This document shows positions 36,825-41,895 of a stretch of DNA of 64,000 bases, in pieces. Position numbers and translations under genes: made by a program. The stretch covers positions 1 to 64,000 of the forward strand of contig NZ_JAMXQS010000008.1 of assembly GCF_024053505.1 (NCBI RefSeq). Reading direction: 5' to 3'. Numbering within the stretch: position 1 is the first letter of the stretch; every line of letters starts with the position of its first letter. The notes beneath the pieces are model-generated. The model had not been told where the DNA came from and searched no databases. It saw only the letters and a program-made list of their open reading frames with translations. The DNA comes from Mesorhizobium liriopis. Its GTDB lineage: Bacteria > Pseudomonadota > Alphaproteobacteria > Rhizobiales > Rhizobiaceae.

Positions 36825-36860
36825 GAGAAAGGGGCCGGCGCTTTCCCAGCTGCCGACCCC
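36825..36860 (-). terminator. Intrinsic terminator of the cysteine-containing small gene
   Basis: On the minus strand GGGGTCGGC and GCCGGCCCC pair (with one G-T) and run into TTTCTCGTTT. It starts about 43 bases after the stop at 36903 and separates this gene from the small DMT gene. Confidence 0.7.
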
Positions 36861-36902
36861 TTTGCCTTGGCCCCCTGTGCGAGGGCCTGGGTTCAGTTGA
36901 AT

Positions 36903-37130
36903 TTACGACGCGCGGCCGTGCGGCGCGGTGAAGTGGCCGCACCAGTCGTCGGAAGCCACCACCGGCCACAGGCCGCGCTGGTTGGCGTCCGGCTGGGAGA
37001 CCGGCGGGTTGAAGCGGCAAAGGCCGGCATCGTTGACGGCCTGCGCGGACGCGCCGTTGCCGTGGTGATCGTCAAAGAAAACGCAAGCGTTGCAGGCGCT
37101 GCCGGCGTCGGAATGGGTTGCAGTCTGCAT
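36903..37130 (-). CDS. Small cysteine-containing protein under an Irr-type box
   Basis: A 75-residue soluble protein of unknown function. It has four cysteines in the pattern CNACVFF ... GLCRFNPP ... WCGHF, plus several histidines, as in small metal- or iron-sulfur-binding proteins. A GGAG ribosome site six bases ahead and a strong promoter with an Irr-type box upstream mark it as an expressed, probably iron-regulated gene. It has its own terminator, so it is a single-gene unit. The combination of CxxC, lone cysteines and iron control suggests a role in iron or iron-sulfur handling, by inference only. Confidence 0.8.
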   Translation of the reverse strand: MQTATHSDAGSACNACVFFDDHHGNGASAQAVNDAGLCRFNPPVSQPDANQRGLWPVVASDDWCGHFTAPHGRAS

Positions 37131-37166
37131 CTCTTATCTCCTTGTAAAGTCGACCAAAACGTTCTA

Positions 37167-37185
37167 CTTTAGAACTGTTCTAAAG
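37167..37185. promoter_or_regulatory. Irr-type iron control element (ICE box)
   Basis: CTTTAGAACTGTTCTAAAG is a perfect 19-base palindrome. It matches the TTTAGAA-N3-TTCTAAA form of the iron control element bound by Irr, the heme-responsive Fur-family regulator of Rhizobiales. It overlaps the -10 and spacer of the leftward promoter, the layout expected for repression when iron is scarce. lepA diverges on the other side, 133 bases away. Confidence 0.8.
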
Positions 37186-37196
37186 ATACCAATCAA
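37168..37196 (-). promoter_or_regulatory. Probable promoter of the cysteine-containing small gene
   Basis: On the minus strand TTGATT (37191-37196) is followed after 17 bases by TCTAAA (37168-37173). The predicted start of transcription is about 30 bases before the coding start at 37130. The Irr-type palindrome covers the -10. Confidence 0.45.
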
Positions 37197-37317: not shown

Positions 37318-39126
37318 ATGACCCCGATTTCCCGCATCCGAAACTTCTCCATCGTCGCCCATATCGACCACGGAAAGTCCACGCTCGCCGACCGCCTGAT
37401 CCAGCTCACCGGCGCGATGGACGCGCGCGAGATGGCGGGCAAGGAACAGGTGCTCGACAACATGGACATCGAGCGCGAGCGCGGCATCACCATCAAGGCC
37501 CAGACCGTGCGCCTCCAATACAAGGCGAATGACGGCGAGACCTACACGCTCAACCTCATCGACACGCCCGGCCACGTCGATTTCGCCTATGAGGTCTCGC
37601 GCTCGCTTTCGGCCTGCGAAGGCTCGCTGCTGGTGGTCGATGCATCCCAAGGCGTCGAGGCCCAAACCCTCGCCAATGTCTACCAGGCCATCGACAACGA
37701 CCACGACATCGTCGTCGTCCTCAACAAGGTCGATCTGCCCGCCGCCGAGCCCGAGCGCATCCGCGACCAGATCGAGGAGGTGATCGGCATCGACGCCTCC
37801 CAGGCCGTGCTGATCTCCGCCAAGACGGGCTTGGGCATCCCCGACGTGCTCGAAGCCATCGTCACGCAGCTGCCGCCCCCGCGCGAGGGCGATCCCGAAA
37901 AGCCGCTGAAAGCGATGCTGGTCGACAGCTGGTACGACGCCTATCTCGGCGTGATCGTGCTCGTGCGCGTCATCGATGGCGTGCTCAAAAAAGGCCAGAC
38001 CATCCGCATGATGGGCACGAACGCCAGATACCCCGTCGAGCGCACCGGCGTCTTCACGCCCAAGATGCTCAATGTGGACGCGATCGGCCCCGGCGAGTTC
38101 GGCTTCATCACAGCAAGCATCAAGGAAGTGGCTGACACCCGCGTGGGCGACACGATCACCGAGGACCGCCGCCCCACACTTTCCCCGCTGCCTGGCTTCA
38201 AGCCCGCGCAGCCGGTGGTGTTCTGCGGCCTCTTTCCCGTCGATGCCGCCGATTTCGAGGACCTGCGCGCGGCGGTGGGCAAGCTGCGCCTCAACGATGC
38301 GTCGTTTTCGTTCGAGATGGAAACCTCGGCCGCGCTGGGCTTCGGCTTCCGCTGCGGCTTTCTCGGCCTCCTGCATCTCGAGATCATCCAGGAGCGTCTC
38401 GAGCGCGAGTTCGACCTCGACCTCATCGCGACCGCGCCTTCCGTCGTTTACCGCCTCAACCTCATCGACGGCTCGCAGAAGGAGCTGCACAACCCCGCCG
38501 ACATGCCCGACGTGGTCCGCATTTCCTCGATCGAGGAGCCCTGGATCCGCGCCACGATCCTGACGCCCGACGACTATCTCGGCGGCATCCTCAAGCTCTG
38601 CCAGGATCGCCGCGGCATCCAGGCCGACCTGTCTTATGTCGGCACCCGCGCGATGCTGGTCTACGACCTGCCGCTCAACGAAGTGGTGTTCGACTTCTAT
38701 GACCGCCTGAAATCGATCTCCAAGGGCTATGCCTCCTTCGACTACGCGCTCACCGACTATCGCGAGGGCGATCTCGTGAAGATGTCGCTGCTCGTCAACG
38801 AGGAGCCGGTGGACGCGCTCTCCATGCTGGTCCACCGCACGGCCGCCGAAAAGCGCGGCCGCGCCATGTGCGAGAAGCTCAAGGAGCTGATCCCCCAGCA
38901 CATGTTCAAGATCCCGATCCAGGCGGCCATCGGCGGCAAGGTGATCGCGCGCGAAACCATCTCGGCGCTGCGCAAGGACGTCACCGCCAAGTGCTACGGC
39001 GGCGACGTCACCCGCAAGCGCAAGCTTCTGGAAAAGCAGAAGGAAGGCAAAAAGCGCATGCGCCAGTTCGGCAAGGTGGATATCCCCCAGGCGGCGTTCA
39101 TCGAAGCGCTGAAGATGGGGGATTAA
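37318..39126 (+). CDS. lepA: Elongation factor 4 (LepA)
   Basis: A 602-residue ribosome-bound GTPase that assists translation and initiation under stress. G1 is AHIDHGKS, G2 [12 protein letters not shown]3 DTPGHVDF and G4 NKVD. The LepA-specific C-terminal region shows [21 protein letters not shown]-type sequence. The ATG at 37318 gives [15 protein letters not shown]; an earlier in-frame ATG is not needed. It is the last core gene before the AT-richer island that starts at its stop codon. Confidence 0.97.
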
Positions 39127-41015: not shown

Positions 41016-41895
41016 TTTCGATGTGTTCTAATACAGCCTTACTGAAATCATCTGTTACTCTAGCTCGCCAATTCTGCCAAGGGGTCCATTCCATGTTTCC
41101 TGCATCCAGTCGCCGCTTGACTCGCAGCTTGTCGAACGAGTTTTCCGGCCATTTATAGAGCGCAACCACGCCAACGTAATGGGATCGATTGTCGAATGCA
41201 CAAAAAAGTGTCTTAGTGCGTTGCCGGATGTCTCGGTCATCTTGATCCATTGCTCGATAATCGAAATAAAATTCGCAGGAACGGATGGAGCTTCGTATTT
41301 CCCCAGTAATTTCTCCGTCTATCAGATCTAGATCGAACTCATCTATAAAGCGGCGTAATCCGCCTGAAATCATCCCTGAAATGTCTCCGGTATTAGAGTA
41401 CTTCCCGACCCGGCATGTTAGTATATGTGTCTCTGTCGCCACGATTGTGAAAACAAAGGCGGGATATAGTAGTGTATCGGACCGCAGGTACAGATAGTCG
41501 CTGCTCAGAATGTCAGCCCTCATGCCATCGATGCTCACGAAGTCCACCTCGGCACGAGATGAATGAGGAATGTGCAAAATTCGATGCCTATTCAATGGCT
41601 GTCGGCGAGTGTTGGTTGTATGCTCAGCCGTTAGGCGCTCGTTGAGCTCTGGACTATTTGCTTTCGATCTTAGGAAGTATATTCCTTGCCCAGTTCTATA
41701 AAATTTTGAGCGTGATTTGTGGGTGAATATGTCCTCGGCGATACGCGCCTGCAAAGTCTTCTGCATCGTGCTGCCCGAGAATTGACGGGGCAGAAGATCA
41801 AAGCGTTTAGCGCTTTCCATGATGTGTTGTGCGGACATCGGCTGCCCACGTGCCAGAAGAACCTGCTCAGCTATTTTTAAGTACCTACTAGTCAT
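41002..41895 (-). CDS. HARE-HTH domain protein, partner of the PNP effector
   Basis: A 297-residue protein. Residues about 1-75 are a HARE-HTH winged helix (LKIAEQVLLARGQPMSAQHI, then TLQARIAEDIF and FYRTGQGIYFLR), the module found in restriction and DNA-modification-linked systems. Residues about 95-297 are alpha/beta with a GKYSNTGDISGMISGGLRR segment faintly recalling a degenerate Nudix fold, but the Nudix box is absent; I do not assign a function. The ATG at 41895 starts exactly at the HTH; the frame continues to a TTG at 41967. It lies upstream of, and overlaps, the PNP gene, so the two form an operon. Confidence 0.75.
   Translation of the reverse strand: MTSRYLKIAEQVLLARGQPMSAQHIMESAKRFDLLPRQFSGSTMQKTLQARIAEDIFTHKSRSKFYRTGQGIYFLRSKANSPELNERLTAEHTTNTRRQPLNRHRILHIPHSSRAEVDFVSIDGMRADILSSDYLYLRSDTLLYPAFVFTIVATETHILTCRVGKYSNTGDISGMISGGLRRFIDEFDLDLIDGEITGEIRSSIRSCEFYFDYRAMDQDDRDIRQRTKTLFCAFDNRSHYVGVVALYKWPENSFDKLRVKRRLDAGNMEWTPWQNWRARVTDDFSKAVLEHIENGQS

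Follow-up and report, generated by a model that had tools for sequence, protein, structure and literature searches.

Directly upstream of a 75-codon gene on the minus strand of Mesorhizobium liriopis lies the sequence CTTTAGAACTGTTCTAAAG, a 19-base perfect palindrome. It is located at positions 37167–37185 of the window, i.e., the whole analyzed stretch of 64,000 nucleotides (contig NZ_JAMXQS010000008.1, positions 1 to 64,000), and was annotated as an Irr box (ICE; no strand assigned) by sequence match and by its conservation before homologues. The reading of this locus that we consider rather likely is an Irr-repressed one-gene unit, whose product would be a cytoplasmic stand-alone HiPIP-like Fe-S protein, likely a soluble electron carrier.

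The gene occupies positions 37130–36903 (minus strand), starts with ATG, and encodes 75 residues with exactly four cysteines (C13, C16, C38, and C64) in the arrangement CxxC-x21-C-x25-C. Based on the ORF list, the alignment, and the homologues, its product was predicted to be a cytoplasmic HiPIP-like protein. A ribosome-binding site, AAGGAG, was read from the sequence at 37138–37143 (minus strand), 7 bases before the start. The neighbors in the window are lepA (assigned by reading), an EamA-like fragment below the cut-off, and PAP2. Thus, the main elements described by the sequence-only reading were found in place: the perfect 19-base palindrome of the TTTAGAA-N3-TTCTAAA type, the ORF of 75 residues with a CxxC and two other cysteines, and the single-gene unit, which fits both the window as read and all eight annotated plasmid homologues inspected. 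Between the small gene and the next gene, an inverted repeat, AAAGGGGCCGGC ... GCCGACCCCTTT, is located at 36828–36864; judged by eye it is possibly a terminator, and the scan made no call there.

No match for the 75-residue protein was found in Pfam, NCBIfam, PHROGs, or PDB sequences, and two relatives touch phrog_15838 (unknown function) at 0.003–0.004. Conservation of the cysteines is directly established, all four being invariant in the 26 family members aligned. The surrounding CR[FIVY]NPP-like, WPVV, and DWCG stretches are present in 25 of these 26, the exception being the distant L009. Only 12 residues precede the first cysteine, so there is no room for a signal peptide, the absence of which was judged by reading. 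The literature search yielded no paper on this protein family, although one of its genes may have been listed earlier as a predicted Irr target; the main survey of the Irr regulon is reportedly that of Rodionov et al. from 2006. Distant relatives were also observed in viral contigs (L118–L131), where CxxC, C[RHK], and WPVV..DWC are mostly kept.

Each pointer to the fold of this protein is weak, and it is the agreement among them that argues for a HiPIP-like fold. When the broad alignment (A4) was compared by hhalign with 15 HiPIPs, all four cysteines fell into register. The score of 21.98 (trimmed alignments, A4) was reached by 0 of 200 shuffles with fixed cysteines, for which the mean was 13.0 and the maximum 20.9. 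For the narrower alignment (A1), the score was equalled or exceeded in 6 of 200 shuffles, so the hhalign support comes from the broad set; the hhalign probabilities of HiPIP against the family are 6–32%. AlphaFold2, run on A4 with no HiPIP put in, produced a middling model (pLDDT 64, pTM 0.47). An earlier model from A1 was poor (pLDDT 46) and was not used for searches. Six chains were passed on by Foldseek for structural comparison, and all five with Z of at least 2 are HiPIPs (rmsd 2.4–6.0 over 46–55 residues), at Z values of 2.1–3.0, which, as the tool warns, may mean a common arrangement alone. No non-HiPIP family occurred among the rows of this comparison of six chains.

The only Foldseek match in the PDB was 9o8u_B (E 1.8) from the MASS complex, this chain being taken for the beta subunit on account of its 118 residues. 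In the published description, the gamma and beta subunits of this complex are HiPIP-like folds with [4Fe-4S], the delta subunit has a rubredoxin-like fold, and the beta cysteines are Cys32, 35, 51, and 86 (PMC12358834). Below the Pfam threshold, BssC_TutF was touched by 3 of the 31 members (best E 0.0077), HIPIP by one (0.11), and a zinc ribbon likewise by one (0.017). BSS gamma is the product of BssC. For BSS gamma, a HiPIP-like fold is described (PMC12590467). The best match of the A4 profile among PDB sequences was a HiPIP (E 0.26), with the cysteines beyond the first CxxC out of the expected register, and the A1 profile returned a ribosomal protein alone (E 0.58), which was discarded. When the second model was searched against BFVD, the upper rows were phage proteins, uncharacterized or without a name (best E 0.0019).

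From these pointers, a HiPIP-like fold is somewhat more probable than not, and an Fe-S cluster in the protein is probable. The sequence-only reading had proposed a small iron or Fe-S protein; this proposal gains support from the kept cysteines, the recurrence of the box, the Irr gene, and the Fe-S targets described below, and the agreeing, individually weak fold pointers sharpen it to a HiPIP-like fold. Electron transfer is our best guess for the job of the protein.

The gene may alternatively be under Irr while its cysteines coordinate a structural zinc ion or one iron atom, as in a zinc-ribbon-like adaptor. Small proteins with four cysteines are often zinc sites, and small zinc-binding proteins are common in viruses; relatives of the small protein occur in viral contigs, and one member among 26 has a sub-threshold match to zn-ribbon_14 (E 0.017). 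However, rubredoxins and zinc ribbons require two CxxC knuckles, whereas the small protein has a single CxxC, after which the other two cysteines stand alone. Its closest matches in fold and profile, weak as they are, are HiPIP-like, and a zinc protein would be a less sensible target for a regulator that silences iron users. The zinc or single-iron site therefore appears unlikely.

Control of the window gene by Irr is very probable. The core of the palindrome, positions 37168–37184, has no mismatches to the pattern TTTAGAANNNTTCTAAA. If up to 3 mismatches are allowed, this pattern occurs twice in the window, whereas shuffling predicts 0.21 occurrences; 2 matches were likewise reached in 5 of 100 shuffles. 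The palindrome at 37167–37185 is the sole perfect TTTAGAA-N3-TTCTAAA match in the genome of 4,477,003 bases, in which three further places have one mismatch and two have two mismatches. At up to 2 mismatches the reversed-pattern control gives 4 places per strand vs. 6 for the box pattern, so that weight was placed only on the perfect match and the identities of the targets, and not on the number of sites. An Irr-like sequence with 3 mismatches, TTTCGATGTGTTCTAAT, lies at 41016–41032 of the window directly before an ORF of 624 residues (41015–39141) and is probably due to chance.

Four of the five other places in the genome with up to 2 mismatches (three with one and one with two) precede Irr-type genes. 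These are a class-V cysteine desulfurase gene facing that of an alpha/beta hydrolase, a catalase gene, an imelysin gene facing that of an EamA transporter, and the gene for an Nfu-type scaffold protein. Cysteine desulfurase, catalase, imelysin, and Nfu genes are typical of Irr control. At the fifth place (L006, two mismatches), no recognized target was found downstream. In total, three Fur-family genes were found in the genome, including an irr gene (L092, G000:C21:75538-75831) that shares its contig with the window and lies about 11.5 kb past the end of the latter. Its product passes both NCBIfam Irr equivalogs, NF045678 with 220 bits (cut-off 150) and NF045677 with 206.7 (cut-off 170). The box, the Irr gene, and the common targets are all direct observations.

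The pattern TTNGANNNNTTCTAA was also scanned in seven other genomes, picked because they carry a homologue of the small gene. The scan gave 43 rows, with palindromes counted on both strands, vs. 22 for the reversed-pattern control. Among the 24 loci read, five belong to the small gene (partly a consequence of how the genomes were chosen), six to cysteine desulfurase, two each to Nfu, MbfA, and TonB-receptor-like genes, and one to RirA; at six, nothing was recognized. One MbfA (L138, NF045676) and RirA (L150, NF008886) pass the NCBIfam cut-offs, the other MbfA (L137) was recognized by its rubrerythrin and VIT1 domains (Pfam), and the remaining loci were named by eye.

Homologues of the small gene often carry the box as well. 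A scan of named genomes yielded 143 relatives, and the best 80 of these 143 were kept, mostly from Methylobacterium, with several from Rhizobiaceae and others. Within 150 bases upstream, a box with up to 4 mismatches was found for 69 of these 80 close homologues vs. 37 of 7020 control windows, and with up to 5 mismatches for 80 of 80 vs. 186 of 7020; many of the 80 are close kin and therefore do not represent 80 independent cases. The homologues from four Rhizobiaceae (Aliirhizobium, Endobacterium, Rhizobium, and Agrobacterium) have a box with 1 mismatch, those from Methylobacterium mostly one with 4 mismatches, and those from Lichenibacterium (L066), Mesorhizobium (L069), and Martelella (L085) one with 5 mismatches. 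The best site of L066 is an inverted repeat of its own, GTCTGGA-N5-TCCAGAC. Four copies of the gene were observed in Methylobacterium sp. J-077 (L016, L026, L031, and L032), each with a box-like element of 4–5 mismatches, and at least three other Methylobacterium assemblies carry three copies.

An order-wide draw, made by profile search in 397 genomes of the same order with up to 15 first-look candidates scored in each, gave a match in at least 36 genomes, the M. liriopis genome included. The upstream 170 bases were read for 29 of the 39 matches outside this genome, the other 10 (4 of them near-subfamily) being without a locus. The loci read comprise 19 of the near-subfamily, defined by E below 1e-16, and 10 distant relatives. 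A box with up to 4 mismatches was found in 11 of the 19 near-subfamily loci, vs. 12 of 1402 control windows, and in none of the 10 distant relatives. The 11 boxed loci span five families, with 7 of 8 loci in family f42 and 4 of 11 in all others; conversely, 7 of the 8 near-subfamily loci where the box is absent are outside f42. The single f42 locus without a box (L167) has a 6-mismatch stretch nearer the start, resembling the Methylobacterium form. Class-wide, the family is rare, being found in 6 of 385 genomes, and among near relatives in 4 of 151, with the M. liriopis genome counted in both. On the evidence of these searches, the gene has a patchy distribution, and within this order the close subfamily is frequently but not invariably accompanied by the box. 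Conservation of the box in much of the order is directly established. The expected pairing of box and homologous gene in other Rhizobiales was thus confirmed for most close homologues and for over half of the order-wide near-subfamily, yet it weakens outside f42; homologues lacking both box and cysteines had been named as counter-evidence, and here the cysteines are kept throughout the 26 aligned members while the box is absent from the loci noted above and from six Rhodobacterales homologues.

In the plasmid set, 33 records contain a homologue, and 25 of these belong to Paracoccus or Thioclava. The gene product is annotated as "hypothetical protein" in 31 records, and the remaining two have no annotation at the locus. 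Six Rhodobacterales homologues (Paracoccus and Thioclava) were searched upstream, and no Irr box was found, the best sites having 5–6 mismatches. Five of these six loci (L156, L159, L161, L162, and L163) have TCAACTATnTGnTTTT upstream, near a TTGA(C) -35-like stretch. Irr seems to be of small importance in Rhodobacter sphaeroides (PMC3413700), which makes a switch of regulator in the Rhodobacterales homologues plausible. Among the plasmid homologues, one from Neorhizobium carries a box with 2 mismatches and one from Methylobacterium a box with 5. On the Thioclava plasmids L158 and L159, the homologue adjoins a gene for a TonB-dependent receptor, and heme and iron transport genes are also present in L158.

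The Methylobacterium element could also be a core promoter alone (TTGAC - TCTAAT) with no Irr site, in which case the conservation of the box would be overstated. Conservation is highest in the right arm, which includes the -10, the left arms are degenerate, and outside f42 the box accompanies a minority of the order-wide genes. The arms were compared at 77 loci (L066, L069, and L085 being dropped), grouped into 30 clusters with flanks less than 60% identical. The left arm matches the inverse of the right arm at 4.77 of 7 positions, compared with 1.44 for nearby 7-mers, and the value of 4.77 leans toward the box because the sites were selected by box match. In 26 of 30 clusters, fewer than 5% of nearby 7-mers equal the match of the left arm to the inverse right arm. 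The left arm thus still matches its partner, a result that the choice of sites favors; moreover, the boxes of the four Rhizobiaceae homologues have 1 mismatch, and that of the window is perfect. A promoter without an Irr site is accordingly judged distinctly improbable, and we retain an Irr site in these elements.

The direction of control may depend on the position of the box relative to the promoter. In 83 upstream regions scored for -35/-10 pairs, the -10 of the best pair overlaps the box in 72, whereas uniform placement would predict 16. For 63 of these 83 regions, the TCTAAT-like portion of the right arm of the box is itself the -10, and there box and -10 are not independent; the independent part of the promoter evidence is the TTG-containing -35 located 15–17 bases before the -10, a spacing that the scorer itself favors. 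At seven Methylorubrum-type loci and at L024, a second box is located on the -10, and the seven also have a box upstream of the -35. For the window, the register common to these 63 regions (box register 11) suggests a putative -10, TCTAAA, within the box at 37168–37173 (minus strand), and a putative -35, TTGATT, was read from the sequence at 37191–37196 (minus strand), 17 bases before it. The consensus scan missed this -35 and found no promoters in the window, and the -35/-10 scorer preferred TTGCGC-17-TATCTT, whose -10 merely overlaps the edge of the box. The idea that the box covers the -10, the position of a repressor site, is therefore plausible from the shared register, but the promoter calls in the window itself do not show it.

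Irr could instead act as an activator or fine-tuner here, with the gene up in low iron. Irr can also activate, depending on the position of the box (PMC7762939), and the further box upstream of the -35 in the seven Methylorubrum-type homologues would suit such a role. Against this, Irr acts as a repressor in iron-depleted cells of the species examined, and the overlap with the predicted -10 in most of the scored regions resembles mbfA, where a box position of comparable kind is read as a repressor site (both from PMC3413700). Activation is thus considered quite improbable, and repression is retained as the preferred direction. That the palindrome is there by chance, or belongs to the divergent gene read as lepA, whose putative start, by reading, is an ATG at 37318, 132 bases away, is hardly credible, since the perfect match is unique in the genome, the box is found again before the small gene in other genomes, and lepA adjoins the homologue in none of the eight annotated plasmid loci inspected.

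For the working of the locus as an Irr-repressed unit, we infer the direction of control, the cluster, the fold, and the electron transfer as follows. When iron (heme) is short, apo-Irr would bind the palindrome over the likely -10 and silence the gene. Under iron sufficiency, Irr would be inactivated, and the small gene would be transcribed together with genes for Fe-S assembly, catalase, and iron handling. The four cysteines would most likely coordinate a single [4Fe-4S] cluster within a HiPIP-like fold whose loops are longer. The protein would most likely be used as a soluble one-electron carrier or redox partner, affordable only with plentiful iron.

More tentatively, and with slightly more doubt than confidence, the family may represent an uncharacterized cytoplasmic branch of the HiPIP fold, outside photosynthesis and glycyl radical enzymes, acting as an iron-gated [4Fe-4S] carrier and spreading as a cassette of one gene, in many cases together with an Irr box, and with distant relatives in viral contigs. 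The gene was found on chromosomes and plasmids, with four copies in one Methylobacterium. If this is true, an electron-transfer function would join the Irr set, which these bacteria silence when iron runs short. HiPIPs have mostly been described as carriers in the periplasm and the HiPIP-like fold in subunits of anaerobic enzymes, and the known uses of this fold would grow by a free-standing group in the cytoplasm.

Compared with known systems, the small gene resembles members of the Irr regulon (mbfA, suf/nifS, nfu, and rirA) in having the same box, detected with one pattern in the same genomes, but, unlike them, its family has no assigned function. Targets of Irr are mostly genes for iron storage, heme, and Fe-S assembly. 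With HiPIPs, the small protein shares the CxxC-C-C order, an aromatic residue shortly after the first pair, a Gly two positions before the third Cys, [WY]C at the fourth, and the weak structural match (Z 2.1–3.0 over 46–55 residues). In contrast to HiPIPs, it has no export signal and no N-terminal segment bearing the Tyr (Y9) invariant in the 15 HiPIPs aligned. It has Asp where HiPIPs have an invariant Gly before the last WC, and its loops of 21 and 25 residues compare with 9–13 and 13–15 in HiPIPs. The protein is below the Pfam cut-off for PF01355 (HiPIP), and no PF01355 match was found in the M. liriopis genome. By family score, N-terminal segment, and export signal, it is therefore not classified as a HiPIP. 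Differences from BssC/TutF (PF08201) are the one-gene unit and the absence of a PF08201 match in the small protein itself; a glycyl radical enzyme was found beside the homologue in none of the eight annotated loci and is not among the window neighbors. BssC/TutF and MASS beta are nevertheless similar to it in being small, in the CX2CXnCXnC arrangement, and in the HiPIP-like fold, predicted here for the small protein. With MASS beta it also shares a long last loop, which runs from Cys51 to Cys86 in that subunit (PMC12358834).
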